A stretch of 64,000 nt of DNA from Herpetosiphonaceae bacterium. Its GTDB lineage: Bacteria; Chloroflexota; Chloroflexia; Chloroflexales; Herpetosiphonaceae. Shown piece by piece: positions 1 through 9,018 of this stretch (position 1 is the stretch's first letter; every line of letters starts with the position of its first letter). The position numbers and the translations under genes were made by a program. The stretch spans positions 1 to 64,000 of the forward strand of contig JABXJS010000127.1 of the NCBI GenBank assembly GCA_013538855.1, written 5' to 3'. A model generated the notes under the pieces. It ran no database searches. It saw only the letters and a program-made list of their open reading frames with translations, and had not been told where the DNA came from.

Positions 1-110
1 ACGCCGCAGACGCCGACGGCCACGCGCACGCCCACCGCGACGCCGCAGACGCCGACGCCAACCGCGACCACGCCGACGCCAACCGCGACCACACCGCCCA
101 ATCAGTCCTA
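1..110 (+). repeat. TPT-rich linker coded by short tandem repeats
   Basis: The first 110 bases are open in the frame of the following gene and encode Thr-Pro-Thr-Ala-Thr repeats. A 21-bp unit (ACGCCGACGCCAACCGCGACC) occurs twice in tandem at about 50-91. Such Thr/Pro linkers usually separate folded domains of secreted proteins, so more coding sequence must lie upstream of the window. Confidence 0.8.
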
Positions 111-3100
111 CCGCGACTTTGGCAACATTCGCATCTGGGCCGATGGGTTTGTGGATGCCAGCGGCACCACTGCTAGCGGCAATGTGGCGGTTGGGTCGAA
201 GCAGACCAACCAGCGCTACTTTGCGATCAGCGGCACGGCCACCTGGTCCAATGGCGGCCCGATCACTCTGCAGGGCACACTGACCATCTATCAGGGCAAT
301 ATTGAGCTGGGCCTGGGCACCTTCACCATCGATCCAGCGACCGGGGCCGTGACCTGGGCACCGAACAATCAGGTGCTCTATCGTAAAATCGGCAGCTCTG
401 ATCTGCAAATCACGCCAACGATCACGGTCAATGTGCTTCAGCCGCAGGTGAGCCTGCAAGCGCTCGTCGTGCTGGCGCTGCCCGAGAGCCAAGAGCTGCG
501 CAGCAATGTGACCTTCGCGCTTGGCCCCAATGGTGCGATCAGCGGCGGCGCTACAACCAGCATCAATTTGAAGCTGGCTGGCGGCACGCTGACCGGCGAC
601 GTCACCGTGAGCAACGCGGGCCTCACTGCCAATCAGGTGCAGTTTGCGCTGCCAGGCGTTGGCACGGTTACGCTGCAGGACCTTGTGATCGACGGCAAGG
701 GACCGGCGAAGTTCCGCTTCGGCGCTAGCACCCACTTCCCCATGCCCGATCTCGACCTGGGCCACGGCGTCTTTGTGCTGAGCAACCTGCAGGCGACGCT
801 GGGCCTCACCGTGACCGCTGGCTCTGGCACAAGCGTGAGCTATATGGTTGGCCTGAGCGGCACGCTCAAGCTGACGAACCTGCCCAAAAACGGCAACGTT
901 GCGGTCGATGCCTTCAACATCAGCATTGCCGATGGCGTGGTCGCTGGCACGGTGCACAACCTTGAGGTCAATATCGCCGGCAAAACGTTGAAGATGGCCT
1001 CCGCGAGCTTCCGCCAGAAGGTCTTTGCCGCCCGTGGCGAGCAGGCTATCAGCTACGAGTTGGTCGCCGACTGGGCCAGTTGGGATGTGCCCTCGTCGTG
1101 GACGGGGCCGGTCAAGCTGGCGGTGACGCTGCGCAATGTGGTTATTCAGACCGAAGCGCCCTATCTGACGATTGGTGGCGCAGGCGCGGACTTCTCCACC
1201 AGCGATGCGTTCTACCTTGGCGGCGATGCGCAATCCAACGCCTCGGTGCGCTTTGATCAGCTGAGCGGCACGTTCCGCTATGAGATCGACCAGCAGAAAT
1301 GGCGCGCTGAGCTGAATGCACGCATCACCTTTAAGTTTGGCAGCGACAGCGCCGAGTTCGCCGGTGTGCATATCGTCGTCGATGACGGCCATGTGACGGC
1401 CACGCTGTCCAATGTGACGCTGAAGGTGGCCGGGCTGGAGCTGAAGGTTAGCCAGCTGGAGTATATTGACGACGCCTTCACCGCCCAGACCGTAGCGCTC
1501 AAGCTACCGGCCGCATGGGGCAACAACTCGATCAGCGTCAGCGGCCTGCACATCTCCAAGCAGGGCGTACGCCTGGGCGGCCTGAGCGGCAGCTTTGCCA
1601 TTCCCGATCAGACGATTGGCGATGTGCTGAAGCTCAAGGGCCTCACCGCCGCAGTCAGCGTTGATAGCCAGCGCAACTACTCGATCATCATCAACGGCAC
1701 CATCCAGATCAACAAGGTCAGCAGCGCCAGCGGCGGCGATAACGTGACGCTGAGCGGTACGCTGGCAATTAAGAACGGCCGCGTATCCGGCTCGATCAGC
1801 CAGTTCAGCTTCAAGCTGGTGGGGCTGGAGTTCAGCGTCAGCCAGGCGCAGTTTGTGGATAACCGCATCAGCGCGCAGACGGTCTCGCTGACCCTGCCGA
1901 GCAACCTCGGCGGCGCACGCACGACGCTGACCGGCCTGGAGATCGGCGGCTCAGCAGGCTTCCGCGTGCAGGGCGGCTCCTTCCGGCTGCCTGACTTCAC
2001 GATGGGCGGCGTGGGCGTGCAAAATGTGCACGCGGAGTTCTCGCGTCAGTCGGATGGCACCTATGTGATCGCCGCTGGAGCCAAGATCAACCTACAAACC
2101 TTCAGCGTCGAGGGTGATTTCAAGATCGCCTACAACGCCTCGACCCACAGCGTGGGCCTGCGCCACGTCTATCTGGCCTTTGAGGGCACGATACCCTCGT
2201 CGGCGATCCCGCTGGGCAACACCGGCTTTTTCTTGACCAAGATCTGGGGTTCGTTCGATATGGACTCGAACGTGCTCAATGTTGCCTTCGGCGTGCGCGC
2301 CTCGATGGCCTTCCAGGTCGCCGGTAAGTCGCTGGTTGGCCTTGATGGCGCGGTCAACGTGCAGATTCGCCCCTCGTTTGAGTTCCGCTCGTCGGCGAGC
2401 GCCTCGCTGCTTGGCTATCAGATCAGCAGCGTCAACCTGCGTATCACGCGCACGGCCTTCCAGCTTGAGGCCGACATTCACGCTGGCATCATTCACGCCG
2501 CGCTGGAGATCGCCTTCGGCCGCGATGCTGCCAACGAGTTCACGTTCTACGGGCGGGTGCAGATGGACCTGGTGATCCCGCGCGGAACGTTTGTCAACAA
2601 GCGCTGGCTGCACATCCCCAAGCACGACTGGCATCTGTTCAGCGTGATGATGGATGGCGGCAAGTTCTATCACAAAGGCCAGAAAGTCTGGGGCGCGCGA
2701 CTCAGCAGTAAAATCCTCGGCATAAGCTTCTTTGTCTTTGCGCAGTTCTCGCCAGGGCAGAAGATCGACATCGGCACGCGCATGAGCGAGTACCAGCCAG
2801 TGCGCCCGGCGCTGCGTCCAGCGCTGGCGGCCTTCCGTCCCAACGATGACGTCTATGAGGTCAACGTGACAGGCAGCACCACAGAGCTGACGATCGTCGA
2901 GGGCATCACCGACACGAACACGCTTGCGCCGCAAGAGCTGGCCGTGATCGCTCCCAGCGGCGCGACCTTCACCAAGGAGCTGTTCTACGAGGAGACCGAC
3001 AAGAGCTACCGCATCTACAAGCTGCACATCGACGCTGCGGATCAGGCCGTCGGCACCTGGTCGCTGGTCACGCAGCCAGGCAACGAGCTGGCGATCTTTG

Positions 3101-4077
3101 GCGCGATACCCGCACCGGCGGTCGATGCCTTCGACGCCTGCACCGCGAGTAGCACCTGCCTGTCCGATGCCGCCGCAGCAGCAGCGCCGCTGAGCCTTGA
3201 GCTAGGCGAGAGCCTTGACCTGGCTTGGCAGACGTCGCATGTGACCAACGGCTTGTCCTTGAATATCTACGCTGAGGATGCCGAGGGCACGCGCTACGCC
3301 ATCGCCAACGAGTTCGATCCTGCGAGCACCAGCCTGAGCGGCACAACAACCTGGCAGCCGATCTTGGCCGCTGGCACCTATACGCTGACGCTGAGCGTTG
3401 AGGACACCATGAGCGGCATCACGACGGTGCAGAAGCAGCCGATCACGCTCGTCGACTCCAGCGCTCCAGCCGCTCCCAGCAACCTGCTTGCCGTTGCGCT
3501 GAGCGATGGCGCGGTGTCGATCACCTGGAATGGTGCGCAGACGGAGGCCGATGTCGTGGGCTATCAGATCGCCATCGATGGCCAGCCGCCGCTGGTCGTC
3601 GAGGAGCGCTTGTCCGCCTACGAGCTGTATGGCCTGGAGCTGGGCCAGCCGCACACCGTGGCTGTCGCCGCCTACGATCTCAGCGGCAATGTTGGCCCCA
3701 GCAGCACAACGCAGGTGACGCTGAGTGCGCTGGGCGTGAACGCTACCTGGCCAACGCGCGGACTGGCTGCAACGTTGATCGACCGCGTGAGCATTACCTT
3801 CAACCGGCCCGTGGTCATCGACAGCTTTACGGTGACCAGCACTGCGGGCGGTTCGATCAGCGGCTCCTTCGCTCCGCTGACCGCCGAGCAAGACATTGAC
3901 TCGACGGCGATCATCGGCGCGCTGTTCACGCCGGACGACGGGCTACTGCCGCTTGGCACCTACACTGCCAGTGTGCAGGCCCACGATGCCGTCACCAATG
4001 AGACCATCAGTGTCGAGTGGCCGTTCGAGGTCGTCGCACCAGCGATCAAAGTGTACCTGCCTGCGGTGAGCCGCTAG
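1..4077 (+). CDS. Large secreted beta-sandwich protein, 5' end outside window
   Basis: The frame is open from base 1 to the stop at 4077, so this is the C-terminal part (about 1358 residues) of a larger secreted protein; the GTG at 151 is only an internal codon. After the TPT-rich linker come long stretches of repeated beta-strand units rich in Gly, Ser and Thr with 'G.V.G.I.N.....G..L..' periodicity. A fibronectin type III-like domain follows at about nt 3465-3720 (SAPAAPSNLLAV ... ITWN ... YDLSGNVGPSS), then a bacterial Ig-like domain with YTASVQAHD. It ends with IKVYLPAVSR, the short tail seen on other secreted proteins in this window. No catalytic motif was recognised. A structural or adhesive surface role is inference. 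A strong hairpin terminator follows 35 bases after the stop. Confidence 0.85.
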   Translation, partial: TPQTPTATRTPTATPQTPTPTATTPTPTATTPPNQSYRDFGNIRIWADGFVDASGTTASGNVAVGSKQTNQRYFAISGTATWSNGGPITLQGTLTIYQGNIELGLGTFTIDPATGAVTWAPNNQVLYRKIGSSDLQITPTITVNVLQPQVSLQALVVLALPESQELRSNVTFALGPNGAISGGATTSINLKLAGGTLTGDVTVSNAGLTANQVQFALPGVGTVTLQDLVIDGKGPAKFRFGASTHFPMPDLDLGHGVFVLSNLQATLGLTVTAGSGTSVSYMVGLSGTLKLTNLPKNGNVAVDAFNISIADGVVAGTVHNLEVNIAGKTLKMASASFRQKVFAARGEQAISYELVADWASWDVPSSWTGPVKLAVTLRNVVIQTEAPYLTIGGAGADFSTSDAFYLGGDAQSNASVRFDQLSGTFRYEIDQQKWRAELNARITFKFGSDSAEFAGVHIVVDDGHVTATLSNVTLKVAGLELKVSQLEYIDDAFTAQTVALKLPAAWGNNSISVSGLHISKQGVRLGGLSGSFAIPDQTIGDVLKLKGLTAAVSVDSQRNYSIIINGTIQINKVSSASGGDNVTLSGTLAIKNGRVSGSISQFSFKLVGLEFSVSQAQFVDNRISAQTVSLTLPSNLGGARTTLTGLEIGGSAGFRVQGGSFRLPDFTMGGVGVQNVHAEFSRQSDGTYVIAAGAKINLQTFSVEGDFKIAYNASTHSVGLRHVYLAFEGTIPSSAIPLGNTGFFLTKIWGSFDMDSNVLNVAFGVRASMAFQVAGKSLVGLDGAVNVQIRPSFEFRSSASASLLGYQISSVNLRITRTAFQLEADIHAGIIHAALEIAFGRDAANEFTFYGRVQMDLVIPRGTFVNKRWLHIPKHDWHLFSVMMDGGKFYHKGQKVWGARLSSKILGISFFVFAQFSPGQKIDIGTRMSEYQPVRPALRPALAAFRPNDDVYEVNVTGSTTELTIVEGITDTNTLAPQELAVIAPSGATFTKELFYEETDKSYRIYKLHIDAADQAVGTWSLVTQPGNELAIFGAIPAPAVDAFDACTASSTCLSDAAAAAAPLSLELGESLDLAWQTSHVTNGLSLNIYAEDAEGTRYAIANEFDPASTSLSGTTTWQPILAAGTYTLTLSVEDTMSGITTVQKQPITLVDSSAPAAPSNLLAVALSDGAVSITWNGAQTEADVVGYQIAIDGQPPLVVEERLSAYELYGLELGQPHTVAVAAYDLSGNVGPSSTTQVTLSALGVNATWPTRGLAATLIDRVSITFNRPVVIDSFTVTSTAGGSISGSFAPLTAEQDIDSTAIIGALFTPDDGLLPLGTYTASVQAHDAVTNETISVEWPFEVVAPAIKVYLPAVSR

Positions 4078-4111: not shown

Positions 4112-4154
4112 GCGCCGCCGCCCATCCGCTGCGATGGGCGGCGGCGCGTTGTTT
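4112..4154 (+). terminator. Rho-independent-like terminator after the secreted protein
   Basis: Perfect 15-bp stem GCGCCGCCGCCCATC / GATGGGCGGCGGCGC around a 6-base loop, followed by GTTGTTT. Confidence 0.85.
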
Positions 4155-4157
4155 CGC

Positions 4158-4163
4158 TATAAT
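4158..4163 (+). promoter_or_regulatory. -10 box of the GRAS-domain gene
   Basis: TATAAT preceded by CGC, 35 bases before the ATG at 4198 and just after the upstream terminator. No good -35 is visible. It overlaps an in-frame ATG at 4162, which argues against that ATG as the start. Confidence 0.5.
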
Positions 4164-4197
4164 GGCGCTGCAACTATCTGTGTTAAGGAGACCTTGT

Positions 4198-5340
4198 ATG
4201 CCCCTCTACACATGGCCGCTTGATGCGCCGATCTGGCAGCGTCTGATTCGTCTGTCCGAGCTGCTTGCCGCTGGCGCAGCCACTGATGCGGAAGCTGAGC
4301 TGCGCGCCTGCCGCGATTCGCTCGCCACACTTGCGCCAGCGCAGGCGCGCTTGGCCGCAGTGTGCATTGATGCGCTGCTTGCGCGGATTGCTGGCTCATC
4401 TGCTGGCGGTAATCTGTATGTGCAGGGCGCTACGCCCGACGCGATGCTCAGCGCCTTTCATGTGCTGGCGACGGAGACGCCGCTGATCCGCTTTGGCTAT
4501 GTGAGCGCAAATCTGGTCCTGCTCGATCAGCTTGCGCGGCTTGAGCGTGCATGGCTGCTTGACATTGGCATCGGCATGGGCACGCAGTGGAGCGATCTGC
4601 TGCAGCGCATGGCCGCCCAACAGGTGCGCGTGCCACTGCATATTACAGGCGTCGAGGTGCCTGCCGCCAGCGGCGACACCGCGCAGCGTATGGCGGCAGT
4701 TGGTCAGCGGCTGCGCCAGGAGGCCGAGGTGCTGCGCATTCCGCTGACCTTCGACGCCGTGATCGCGCCGATCGAGACGCTGACCGATCTGCGTCGGCTT
4801 CAGCCGCGCCAGGCCCCGGTGCTGGTCAACGCGGTGCTGTCGCTGCACCACATCTTGCCCGCCGATGTCGCCCCTGAGCCAGCGCAGAGCCGTGAGGCGG
4901 TGCTTGCACGCATCTGTGCGCTTGAGCCGACGCTGCTCACGGTCGTCGAGGTCGACTCCGAGCACAGCGAGTTGGCCTTCACCCAGCGCGTCCCTGAGGC
5001 GCTGCGCCACTATGCCGCAACGTTTGATGCATTGGCTACGCTGCTGCCTGAGCGCCCAGATGAGCGTGCGCTGATTGAGCAGCTGTTCTTTGGGCGTGAG
5101 ATTCATAACGTGCTGGCCTGCGAGGGCGCTCAGCGTGTCGAGCGTCATCAGCGCCTCGCCAGCTGGCAGCGCCGCTTTAGCCAGGCAGGCTTGCACGTCT
5201 TCGACCTCGCCGCCTATCAGCCGAGCGTTCGCAGCGATTTGGCGTGCAGCGACCTCTGCGCTGTCCAGGCCGCCGACGCGGCCCTGCGCTTAGTCTGGCG
5301 CGATCAGGTGCTGCTCAGCGCGATGGCCTGGACAAGTTAG
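4198..5340 (+). CDS. Bacterial GRAS-domain protein (SAM-methyltransferase fold)
   Basis: A 380-residue protein with the ordered motifs of the GRAS family, best known as plant transcriptional regulators with a Rossmann methyltransferase-like fold. From about residue 120, LLDIGIGMGTQWSDLLQRMA corresponds to the VHIID block and HITGVEVP follows as in plant RITG segments. VNAVLSLHHIL matches the plant VN..LQLH.LL segment. VVEVDSEHSELAFTQR then EALRHYAATFDAL matches the 'EQEA.HN...F..RF.EAL.YYS..FDSL' block. IHNVLACEGAQRVERH matches PFYRE/NVVACEG..R.ER, and LRLVWRDQVLLSAMAW matches the terminal SAW motif. The ATG at 4198 is chosen because AAGGAG lies 7 bases upstream; an in-frame ATG at 4162 overlaps the -10 box. 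Bacterial GRAS proteins have been proposed to be methyltransferases acting on small molecules; the substrate here is unknown. The gene stands alone, with no obvious pathway partner. Confidence 0.85.
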   Translation: MPLYTWPLDAPIWQRLIRLSELLAAGAATDAEAELRACRDSLATLAPAQARLAAVCIDALLARIAGSSAGGNLYVQGATPDAMLSAFHVLATETPLIRFGYVSANLVLLDQLARLERAWLLDIGIGMGTQWSDLLQRMAAQQVRVPLHITGVEVPAASGDTAQRMAAVGQRLRQEAEVLRIPLTFDAVIAPIETLTDLRRLQPRQAPVLVNAVLSLHHILPADVAPEPAQSREAVLARICALEPTLLTVVEVDSEHSELAFTQRVPEALRHYAATFDALATLLPERPDERALIEQLFFGREIHNVLACEGAQRVERHQRLASWQRRFSQAGLHVFDLAAYQPSVRSDLACSDLCAVQAADAALRLVWRDQVLLSAMAWTS

Positions 5341-5937
5341 CTCGGCGTTGTTGGCGCAGGCTCCTTTTGAATGGTTTCTGGACGCTGTGTTGCGACAGTG
5401 GACAGGTGCTGCTTGAAAGGAGCTTCGACTCTGTTGGCGCATGGCTACAACGTGGTTGGCGCTGGCCTACCTTGTCTCAGCCGCAACGGCTCAAATCCGC
5501 CCGCTGCCGACGGCCGCAATCTTCAAATGGATGATCATGCCCTCTACACCAACATTCTTGCGCCGCTGGCGGATAACGCTGGCCCTGGCCTGACGTACGA
5601 GCTGCTGCCAGCCAGCACGGCGCTGTATTCCGCCCAGGCTGGCTGCGCGAGCGTCGATCAGCTGGTGTGGCGCGTGACGCTATCGGCTGCGATAGCGGGG
5701 CGCTGGAGCACCTGCCCGCGCAGTTAATCCTGCCCGTGATTGTTCAAGCGATGACTAGTCAGCTCAACGCAACAGCGAGCATCCGCGCTGCTACCATGCC
5801 GCTCGCCCATGCGCCTGTCGCTCCCGCAGGTGTGGTGACGGTGATCAACCGTGTGCTTGATCAGTACGTCTGTATGACTATTTTTTATGTTAGGATATTG
5901 TCAGGCTGGCGGCTGTGTCCAGGGCATGGTCGTCAGC
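5341..5937 (+). other. Intergenic region with possible decayed coding remnant
   Basis: About 600 bases without a convincing gene. Two overlapping plus-strand frames look weakly protein-like: about 5530-5670 (MDDHALYTNILAPLADN...) and about 5670-5870 (DAIGCDSGALEHLPAQ ... VVTVINRVLDQYV). Joined by a frameshift near 5665-5680 they would give roughly 110 residues. No family or good ribosome site is recognised, so a broken short gene is possible but unproven. Confidence 0.3.
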
Positions 5938-6318
5938 CTAGGGCTGCGCAAAGCCCTCGATGCGGGCTTCGATTGATCCGCTGTGCGGATCGCTATGAAA
6001 TGTGACCCAGGCTTGGCGCTGTGAGCCACGTGGCACGTAGTTGAGCTGCACGCTTGACACCTCGCTCGGCTGGGTGCCGGTCAGCGTCAGCGTCACCTGT
6101 ACCGCCTCGGCTGTCTGCGAGCCAGCGTTGCTGACCGTGATGGGCACAAGGTACTGTGCGCCGTGCTGTTCGCCCTGCCCAACGCTGACGCTCAGCAGCG
6201 GCGGGCTGCTGGTGGATGTCGCCCCGTTGTACACGAGATAGCCGAGCATGCCTAGCACCAGCAGTGCGCTGATACCGAACACGCTCCACTCAAGCCAATT
6301 TTTCTCAAGATTTTTCAT
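5938..6318 (-). CDS. TIGR02588-like membrane-anchored protein
   Basis: A 126-residue protein starting MKNLEKNWLEWSVFGIS, with one N-terminal transmembrane helix (about residues 10-30, ending GMLGYLVYNGA). A single beta-sandwich ectodomain follows, with V.V.N.G...A..V.VTL.L. Size and layout match my recollection of the TIGR02588 conserved hypothetical family, which is encoded next to TIGR02587. The start ATG overlaps the stop of the upstream membrane gene by ATGA (6315-6318), which implies translational coupling. A longer in-frame reading upstream would run into that gene and is rejected. Function unknown; it is probably a partner of the neighbouring multi-pass protein. Confidence 0.8.
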   Translation of the reverse strand: MKNLEKNWLEWSVFGISALLVLGMLGYLVYNGATSTSSPPLLSVSVGQGEQHGAQYLVPITVSNAGSQTAEAVQVTLTLTGTQPSEVSSVQLNYVPRGSQRQAWVTFHSDPHSGSIEARIEGFAQP

Positions 6319-7214
6319 TGAAGTAGAAGCCTCCCCGCCGATGCGCCGAGCACAGCTGGCACGCCGAGCACAATCGTCTCTGCGAGCGCGACGCCAAAGG
6401 CTGTGCCTGTGAAGCGGCCAAAAAACCACAGAATCGCTGCCGATGCCAGCAGCGCTATGCCGTAGGTGATCGCCGTGCCCCGCAGCACGGTGCTAAATCC
6501 GGAGTCAGGATCGCGCTTTGGTGCGCCGGTAAAATCGCTGTAGAAGAGGATCATAGCGCTGAGCACCAGCGACACGCCGCTCATCATGAGCAGATGCCAG
6601 GCGTTGCTCTCAACGGCGATCAACACAATCTCCTCGGTTGGCGCAACGTTGGCTGCGATCAGCACCGCACCACAGAGCGCCAGCACCAGCTGGGCGAAGA
6701 GCGCCTTGTTATCGCTGAGCGAGCCGGCGTTATCTTGCTGCTGCCCCTCATGGTGTGATTGACCACCGAGCTGCGCGGTGCCGACAGAAACGCCGATGGC
6801 CACATTCATGGCCTCGACCACGGTTTTGCCGACGATCTCCTGCAGCGGCATGCGCGGCGTAATGCGCCCAAGCATCCATAAGATGGCCATCGACAGCAGG
6901 AGGCCAATGCCCATCTCTTCAATCGAGTCCACGGCGATTTCAAGCAGGGTCGCGTCGTTGTGGAGGCCAACAAAGCGATTGTAGCCAAGCAGCAGCGCGA
7001 AGGTGACGCCAAAGAGAATACACAAACGCCACGGCCCAGCAATAAAGCCCGCCCACCAGATCTCCATAGTGTAGAGCAGCGGTAGGCTAAACAGCAGGCC
7101 GCCGGCGATGCCGCGCGCATACTCTTTCAAGGATTCGATCAGCGTGGGGTGGTGTGTGGAGCTATCGGCATCCGCTGATGCTTGGCGTGATGACATTGAT
7201 GCGCTGTGTGCCAC
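6315..7214 (-). CDS. TIGR02587 family multi-pass membrane protein
   Basis: A 299-residue integral membrane protein with about seven hydrophobic segments (for example GIAGGLLFSLPLLYTMEIWW, CILFGVTFALLLGYN, GIGLLLSMAILWMLG, and a C-terminal GVPAVLGASAGRLLLQ). It matches the TIGR02587/DUF2391 type as recalled. The GTG at 7214 is preferred because AAGGAGG lies 6 bases upstream; it gives the N-terminus (M)AHSASMSSRQ. The gene forms a two-gene operon with the TIGR02588-like protein through the ATGA overlap. The N-terminus and a loop near residue 165 (GGQSHHEGQQQDN) are polar and variable. No biochemical role is established for the family to my knowledge. Confidence 0.82.
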   Translation of the reverse strand: MAHSASMSSRQASADADSSTHHPTLIESLKEYARGIAGGLLFSLPLLYTMEIWWAGFIAGPWRLCILFGVTFALLLGYNRFVGLHNDATLLEIAVDSIEEMGIGLLLSMAILWMLGRITPRMPLQEIVGKTVVEAMNVAIGVSVGTAQLGGQSHHEGQQQDNAGSLSDNKALFAQLVLALCGAVLIAANVAPTEEIVLIAVESNAWHLLMMSGVSLVLSAMILFYSDFTGAPKRDPDSGFSTVLRGTAITYGIALLASAAILWFFGRFTGTAFGVALAETIVLGVPAVLGASAGRLLLQ

Positions 7215-7401
7215 GATGAACCTCCTTGTTCTACTAGATGAGGCTATAGCAAACTTCGCGCCGCAGCATGTTGTTCTCGTGATCAAGCCGCTTGGGGAGT
7301 ACTTTCGTCCTGGTTTTTGCGTTTGGCCGTATCATTTGCTGTACTGTAGCGGTGTAGAGGGTGCAGTCTGGTTCAACGATAGCGCAATCTAGGAGTGGCA
7401 T

Positions 7402-7953
7402 ATGCAGTGGCGTAGCTCAGCAGGACGTTCGGTGTTTCGATTGATGTTGGTGGTCGGCTTGTGCTCCGGCGGCGTTGGTGCTGCCAGCGCGCAAGAGCGC
7501 AGCGATGCCGTGTGGTCGCGGGTTCAAGAGCGCATCGCAGCCGTGCTCGGCTTAACGGCGCAGCAGGTGCAGTCCTATCAGCAGCAGCTGGGCCTTGGCA
7601 GCCTGATCTTTGCTGCGCGCTTGGCCGATCAATCTGGACAATCGCTTGATACTATTGTTGAGCGGCGGAGTGCTGGCGAGGGCTGGGGCGAGATCGCCCA
7701 TAGTCTTGGCCTCTCGGCGAGCCGTCGCAATGCGAATCTCGGCCAGATCATGCGCCAGCCCAACCCTGGCCAGAGTGCCAAGCCCACTGATAAGCCCTGT
7801 GCCGACGCCCAGTCCACGAGCCCTGACTGTGCCGATCCTGATGACGACAGTGACGACATGCACGCTGGCCCGCCGCCGTGGGCTGGCAAGCCCGCCAACC
7901 CTGGCCATGGCAATGGGCGCGGGCATGGCAATGGTAAAAACAAAGATAAGTAA
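7402..7953 (+). CDS. Secreted hypothetical protein with Gly/His/Asn-rich tail
   Basis: A 183-residue protein with an AGGAG site 6 bases before the ATG. The N-terminus is a signal peptide (LMLVVGLCSGGVGAASA, cleavage likely near residue 30). The middle is a helical domain, LGLTAQQVQSYQQ...SLDTIVERRSAGEGWGEIAHSLGL. The 'G.GWGEIA..LGL' pattern recurs in many small secreted bacterial proteins of unknown function. The C-terminal third is low complexity: an acidic DPDDDSDD stretch, then PGHGNGRGHGNGKNKDK, which could bind metal or polyanions. Divergent from the TIGR02587 operon and closed by a hairpin terminator. Confidence 0.75.
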   Translation: MQWRSSAGRSVFRLMLVVGLCSGGVGAASAQERSDAVWSRVQERIAAVLGLTAQQVQSYQQQLGLGSLIFAARLADQSGQSLDTIVERRSAGEGWGEIAHSLGLSASRRNANLGQIMRQPNPGQSAKPTDKPCADAQSTSPDCADPDDDSDDMHAGPPPWAGKPANPGHGNGRGHGNGKNKDK

Positions 7954-7967
7954 TCTGCTCTGCTACG

Positions 7968-8008
7968 ACAGCGCCGCCCATCACGTTAGCTGGTGGGCGG
8001 CGCTGTTA
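7968..8008. terminator. Bidirectional terminator between convergent genes
   Basis: ACAGCGCCGCCCATCA / TGGTGGGCGGCGCTGT stem of 16 pairs with one G-U pair and a 7-base loop, followed by T. It lies between the stop at 7953 (+) and the stop at 8026 (-). Its core GCCGCCCATC is shared with the terminator at 4112. Confidence 0.8.
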
Positions 8009-8025
8009 TGCTGTAAGGCTCAGGG

Positions 8026-8952
8026 TTAGAAGCTGCGCATCGCTGCGCTAAGCTGGCGCAGAACAGGTGCAAACTCCTCGCGCAGACTGTAGGGATCGAT
8101 GCTGATAAAGGTTTGAATACGGCTGCGTGTGCGGGCATCGGCGTTGGCGGCGCTAGTGAGGAGTGCGCCTGTCTCGTAGGTGAAGAGGTGGCGCACCCAG
8201 CTGGCTGGATTCTCCAAGTAGCGCTGAATATCCTTGAAGGCGTACTCGGTGATTGCGCCGAGCTTAAGCACGCGCTCGAAGCAGGCCATATCAAACTGGA
8301 GCGCGGTGAGCACACGCAGGCCCTGCTGCTCAAGGGCGTTGATGCCGACGCGGCTGCGCGCAACCACGCCCAGCGTTGTGCTGATTGACGCGCTTTGCCC
8401 GGAGATCGCAGGCAGCCACATACCAAGATAGCTGCTGCCCTGATTGATGATATCGGCGACATGGACCACCTCGCGCCCGCCGAGACTCTGGTGGTGTAGC
8501 GTGCCATCGGGTGCGGTGAGCGTGCTTGCACCTGACTTAAAGATTGCCAGATGCGGCACATTGAGCACTTGGGCGATCGGTATCGAGAAAAACCAGTCGC
8601 GGCGCTCGCCGCCGGAGATGACAACGCTATCTGTAGCAAGCTGTGCGCGCAAGAAGCTAGCGAGCGCCCTGATTAGCTCATCGTACTCGGGATTGGCGTG
8701 CCACTGCTTGGAGATTAAGCTCCAGGCTGCCGCCGCCTGCTGCTCTGGCTGTTTGAATGTTGCAAGGCTATAGGTGATCTGCGCTAAGATTTGTGGGGCT
8801 ACTGCTTGGCCGATCAAGTTCTGCGTAGCGGTGTAGAACGGTCCCGGCAGACCAGACGTATACCAGAAGGGCGGGGCATCGGCATCCTGGCGCACACGAA
8901 TCGCCTGGGTTGCAATCAGCCGCCGCAATACCAGCTCTTCCACGTGTGACAT
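8026..8952 (-). CDS. Orotate phosphoribosyltransferase-like protein
   Basis: A 308-residue protein starting MSHVEELVLRRLIAT. The N-terminal segment contains FWYTSGLPGPFYTATQ. ISGGERRDWFFSIPIAQ and VVHVADIINQGSS (the equivalent of the PRPP-binding loop, usually VDD..T.G.S) point to the type I phosphoribosyltransferase fold of OPRTase. The C-terminal half carries VVARSRVGINALEQQGLRV and then a helical extension beyond the usual ~210-residue enzyme. The PRPP loop is AD rather than DD, so activity is uncertain. The ATG at 8952 has GGGAG just upstream; an in-frame TTG four codons earlier is less likely. No pyrimidine gene is adjacent, so a specialised or regulatory role is possible. Confidence 0.6.
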   Translation of the reverse strand: MSHVEELVLRRLIATQAIRVRQDADAPPFWYTSGLPGPFYTATQNLIGQAVAPQILAQITYSLATFKQPEQQAAAAWSLISKQWHANPEYDELIRALASFLRAQLATDSVVISGGERRDWFFSIPIAQVLNVPHLAIFKSGASTLTAPDGTLHHQSLGGREVVHVADIINQGSSYLGMWLPAISGQSASISTTLGVVARSRVGINALEQQGLRVLTALQFDMACFERVLKLGAITEYAFKDIQRYLENPASWVRHLFTYETGALLTSAANADARTRSRIQTFISIDPYSLREEFAPVLRQLSAAMRSF

Positions 8953-9018
8953 ACGGTCTCCCAAACCAAATACGTATAACCCGCCTATTGTAGCGCAAAA
9001 TCGCTAACCTGTGGTTGT

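Follow-up and report, generated by a model that had tools for sequence, protein, structure and literature searches.

The window, by which we mean the whole stretch of 64,000 nucleotides analysed here (contig JABXJS010000127.1 of a Herpetosiphonaceae bacterium), contains on its forward strand at 4198–5340 a gene for a full-length GRAS-domain protein of 380 amino acids, recognised by Pfam family PF03514, by plant GRAS proteins in the PDB and by an AlphaFold2 model. The frame begins with ATG 4198 and is intact to 5340. A Shine-Dalgarno-like AAGGAGA (4185–4191, forward strand; read directly) lies 6 nt 5′ of this ATG; an alternative in-frame ATG at 4162 has no ribosome-binding site of the AAGGAGA type. 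TATAAT at 4158–4163 (forward strand), also read directly, is a possible −10 box, for which a promoter scan found no matching −35. A terminator scan returned a hairpin at 4126–4146 (forward strand), 3′ of the upstream gene; with two such structures found, this one included, against 1.3 expected, the result stands at chance level. The GC content of the gene resembles that of the surrounding DNA.

The upstream neighbour is a forward-strand frame at 1–4077, and downstream follow a DUF2391 gene (6315–7286, reverse strand) and others. The GRAS gene is a stand-alone gene: its flanking genes point to no pathway, and no aminotransferase gene lies beside it in the window. The large frame at 1–4077 has its start outside the window, is rich in TPTATPQTPTPTAT in its N-terminal stretch and ends in VYLPAVSR; its product looks like a surface protein.

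PF03514 matches the protein with 223 bits (E 7e-66; curated cut-off 27) over profile positions 3–374 of 374, in order. GRAS is the sole Pfam family to match, and no methyltransferase family appeared in this search even below threshold (E up to 1); an NCBIfam search gave no match. The convincing sequence matches in the PDB are all plant GRAS proteins (DELLA, SCL3, SCR and SCL7), with DELLA RGA at the top (E 1e-33). These two E values exclude chance as the source of the GRAS identity. Alignment with RGA, DELLA1, SCR, SCL3 and SCL7 located a VHIID-type block reading WLLDIGIGMGTQW (plant counterpart VHIID...QGLQW), a RITG block reading HITGVEVP and an LQLH block reading LSLHH. The EALRHYAATFDAL block lies at 4996–5034 (direct reading and alignment) and the NVLACEGAQRVERH block at 5107–5148 (alignment to plant GRAS), both on the forward strand. 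The C-terminal strands (5257–5337, forward strand) carry the SAW-like end SAMAW, identified by alignment with plant SAW and by DSSP of the model, which assigns strands E354-359, E362-367 and E370-379. The VHIID, LQLH, PFYRE-region, RVERH and SAW blocks are thus all present with their order kept, in agreement with the series of motif blocks that the preliminary description had listed, and no ordinary class I methyltransferase family competes with GRAS for the protein. Plant GRAS proteins have variable N-terminal extensions; the N-terminus of the window protein, in contrast, is short.

The AlphaFold2 model (pLDDT 91.8, pTM 0.90) shows the GRAS fold of a helical cap and a Rossmann core. Its best fold matches in Foldseek are solved plant GRAS structures (DELLA, SCL3, SCR and SCL7), on which it superposes with TM-scores of about 0.8–0.85 by query length. 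The best matches outside GRAS are small-molecule SAM methyltransferases (PsoF, EgtD, NovO and histamine N-methyltransferase); non-GRAS methyltransferases among the matches listed reach TM-scores of at most 0.45 by query length. EgtD (4pio) and PsoF (6kji) agree with the window protein in core fold and in the position of motif I (Foldseek E about 1e-7), but share only 12–14% identity with it and lie outside the GRAS family. This resemblance is one of mechanism, not of family membership.

The residues expected around the cofactor were compared column by column in 27 bacterial GRAS rows and five plant sequences. On the basis of what is established for class I methyltransferases in general, and of their positions after strands 1, 2 and 3 of the model, we take the loop of G124, G126 and G128 and the residues at 153 and 193 to be the SAM contacts. 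In the window protein, SAM motif I is DIGIGMG (residues 122–128, 4561–4581; column table and alignment) within the VHIID block. Glu153 (4654–4656; alignment, and model strand E147-153), the acid after strand 2, would contact the ribose, and Glu193 (4774–4776; alignment) the adenine. After strand 4 follows NAVLSLHH in the LQLH block (residues 211–218, 4828–4851), the presumed substrate or catalytic site, and after strand 5 EVDSEH (residues 251–256, 4948–4965), a presumed substrate site, both placed by alignment; all five features are on the forward strand. Motif I of the form DxGxGxG together with an acid after strand 2 is the pattern of class I methyltransferases, and the SAM-binding side, which had looked intact in the preliminary description, appears so in these residues. 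Of the 27 bacterial rows, 26 retain G126, G128, an acid (Asp or Glu) at 153 and Glu193, the window protein among them; this suggests selection for cofactor use. G124 is present in all 27, N211, H217 and H218 are invariant in the same 27, E251 is invariant across all rows and H256 nearly so. Methyltransf_12 and Methyltransf_25 each match nine of the 27 bacterial members weakly, starting at motif I where coordinates are shown.

The plant proteins compared (DELLA RGA 9lum, SCL3 6kpb, SCR 5b3h and OsSCL7 5hyz among them) share the fold, the block order and many pocket residues with the window protein. In all five plant rows, however, G126, the acid at 153 and Glu193 are gone (SCL3 has Asp at the last position), while most of these rows retain G128; the window protein has all three and so does not show the broken SAM site of the plant regulators. 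Plant GRAS domains have indeed been reported to lack SAM motifs and not to bind SAM by ITC (FEBS Lett 2018, PMC5873383).

GRAS genes are rare in the bacterial class of the window: they occur in two of 158 genomes, the window genome and G070, and the same two were the matches among 400 genomes drawn from the phylum. A third match in the phylum (L003), which falls on tandem repeats in unrelated sequence and does not reach the cut-off, was rejected as spurious. A single-sequence scan of genome contigs found no relative; an alignment-based scan of genome contigs found 27. None was found in phages or in viral contigs. Related genes occur in Sorangium, Myxococcus, Corallococcus, Cytophagales, Cohnella, Brevibacillus, Ectobacillus, Streptosporangium, one Gemmatimonadetes MAG and on Skermanella plasmids. 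Eight of nine genomes counted hold a single copy and one holds two. On the large Skermanella plasmids, the GRAS genes (5716–6834 of both L007 and L008) stand beside genes for a PAS-domain protein and a response regulator. The bog_1112 MAG has a second GRAS gene (L056:5149–6090, reverse strand), whose product carries IEPL after strand 2 without the plant-like insert and looks like a member of the other bacterial branch (B, below).

Two trees divide the bacterial sequences into branches A and B. Branch B holds the rows from Myxococcaceae, Bacillota, Skermanella, Streptosporangium and Gemmatimonadetes. Branch A comprises the window protein, G070, Sorangium, two more genomes from Myxococcota, a Deltaproteobacteria MAG that the tree tool assigned to Myxococcota, and the Cytophagales fusions described below. 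The window protein has its nearest rows in Sorangium and further bacteria (identity up to 39%), and its own branch is long (1.24–1.35). Branch A and the five plant sequences form one clade, apart from branch B, with 100/100 support in both trees; within it the plants are monophyletic (100/99) and the window protein lies outside them. Some of the plant sequences are incomplete, since they derive from HMMER alignments to PDB chains. AU tests with the branch A bacteria held together (p 0.11) or with the window protein and the plants held together (p 0.34) favour neither an arrangement with plants as sister to the branch A bacteria nor one with plants nested among them. Of the suggestion that the gene is ancestral to, or exchanged with, the plant family, the common clade stands; placement and direction are not fixed by these tests. 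A review (PMC12448838), citing Fang et al. 2017, describes one bacterial GRAS subgroup as monophyletic with plants, and branch A fits this subgroup.

The sole other GRAS gene found in the class comes from a genome of the same order as that of the window. The G070 protein is full-length (L004:8573–9754, reverse strand; profile match of 221 bits) and is the one bacterial row without the SAM constellation. Its site residues are Asp126, Pro128, Arg153 and Gly193; like plant GRAS proteins, it has lost the SAM-site residues and retained most other conserved residues of the active site and pocket. Directly adjoining its gene on the 3′ side is one for a 168-aa protein without a Pfam match, and a STAS protein is encoded nearby. 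G070 provides a natural example of a SAM site lost outside the plant lineage.

Several branch A relatives link GRAS to an aminotransferase. Six Cytophagales genomes, Botryobacter included, encode fusions in which a HisC-like aminotransferase, scoring above the TIGR01141 cut-off, forms the N-terminal part and GRAS follows (L012:5367–7535, L094:6851–9010, L095:7095–9242, L096:6545–8770, L097:7478–9679 and L098:7012–9213). These fusion proteins (L012, L059–L063) have a GRAS domain of the same branch with the SAM motif intact, as in the window protein, which itself has no aminotransferase domain. In KLAP118 a hisC gene (L013:6805–7887; pair at 6805–8999) and in bog_1112 a class I/II aminotransferase gene (pair at L014:2423–4485) overlap the GRAS start by 4 nt; in G1070 a hisC gene lies 3′ of GRAS and overlaps it as called (L093:7424–9822). 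The link thus occurs in four of seven branch A lineages and in three arrangements. A rough hand estimate, not a tool result, puts the chance of this at about 1e-8, assuming some ten such genes per roughly 6000, two flanks and four of seven lineages. In Ectobacillus funiculus (L035), an LL-diaminopimelate aminotransferase gene lies upstream of GRAS at a distance of about 1 kb; this pair was left out as not linked. A second hisC elsewhere in Botryobacter scores better than the fused copy, which is therefore an extra paralogue. A tree in which all GRAS-linked hisC genes descend from a single module is not the best one, and the AU test does not reject it (p 0.10). The link is missing in Sorangium, G070 and the window; since not every member of the branch has it, its absence does not exclude the window protein from branch A. 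The literature searched, which did not cover Zhang et al. 2012, contained no mention of aminotransferase coupling of GRAS or of a SAM-site loss like that in G070.

Three explanations find little room in these data. Misidentification of an ordinary class I methyltransferase as GRAS would fit the shared Rossmann core, but is refuted by GRAS being the only Pfam match, and the fold scores separate plant GRAS clearly from the other methyltransferases listed. Similarity to plant DELLA is strong and the gene is sporadic in its class, as a recent plant-to-bacterium transfer would have it; this too is rejected, because the plant clade excludes the window protein, the protein retains the SAM site, which is broken in each of the five plants, the nearest rows are bacterial and the GC content is that of the surroundings. 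Decay into a gene without a working product could account for a stand-alone, sporadically occurring gene on a long branch, but is very unlikely given the intact frame, the ribosome-binding site and the retention of residues that are invariant or nearly so among bacterial GRAS proteins.

The main rival to catalysis is a non-catalytic binder or regulator that, as in plants, would bind SAM, SAH or another metabolite and work via protein contacts. The plant-type blocks are all conserved, the plant relatives are regulators, and G070, from the same class, keeps most pocket residues without those of the SAM site. Signalling genes also lie near some members of the branch, namely an FHA/sigma-54 activator upstream of the Sorangium gene (L009) and the STAS protein near G070. 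This reading nevertheless appears rather improbable to us: 26 of 27 bacterial rows retain the SAM constellation, and in six genomes GRAS is joined to HisC, a metabolic enzyme, which speaks for a role in metabolism.

With its family, fold, clade and retained SAM-site residues established by computation, the gene belongs to the plant-like bacterial GRAS branch and probably encodes a working SAM-dependent small-molecule methyltransferase. We infer catalysis from the site residues and the modelled fold, whose best non-GRAS counterparts are enzymes of this kind; the same function had been suggested in the preliminary description and gains support here. What speaks against it is the missing SAM binding of plant GRAS domains, the site loss in G070 within the same branch, and the lack of even a sub-threshold methyltransferase match for the window protein. 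SAM would be held by the glycine-rich loop DIGIGMG, Glu153 and Glu193, and the substrate is predicted to lie under the helical cap, against Asn211, His217/218, Glu251, His256 and a C-terminal Arg/His cluster. The gene is a stand-alone one in the window, as the preliminary description had said, but the aminotransferase fusions and overlaps of relatives do provide a substrate context. By analogy with these relatives, the substrate may, much more tentatively, be an amino acid or the corresponding keto acid or aminol, a hint that may not carry over, since GRAS has no aminotransferase gene next to it in the window genome or in Sorangium.

The proposal that bacterial GRAS proteins are Rossmann-fold methylases goes back to Zhang, Iyer and Aravind (2012, Bioinformatics 28:2407), a paper to which PMC4279901, PMC5834537 and PMC9942845 refer; the idea is therefore not new with this gene. 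The window protein and the proteins of 2012 are alike in whole-domain Pfam GRAS, Rossmann methyltransferase fold and kept SAM-site residues. There is no difference in kind; the window protein comes from a class in which the gene is rare.

Plants use GRAS proteins such as DELLA and SCARECROW as growth regulators. A bolder possibility, which we consider less likely than not, is that plant-like bacterial GRAS is the methyltransferase half of an aminotransferase–methyltransferase pair making a methylated amino-acid derivative, that the plant regulators would descend from it by loss of SAM binding, and that G070 would have lost it independently. The relatives suggest a concrete substrate class, amino acids and their keto and aminol partners as handled by HisC-type enzymes. 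The window gene adds a further plant-side GRAS relative with SAM-site residues and bears on the enzyme role of the ancestor of plant GRAS proteins.
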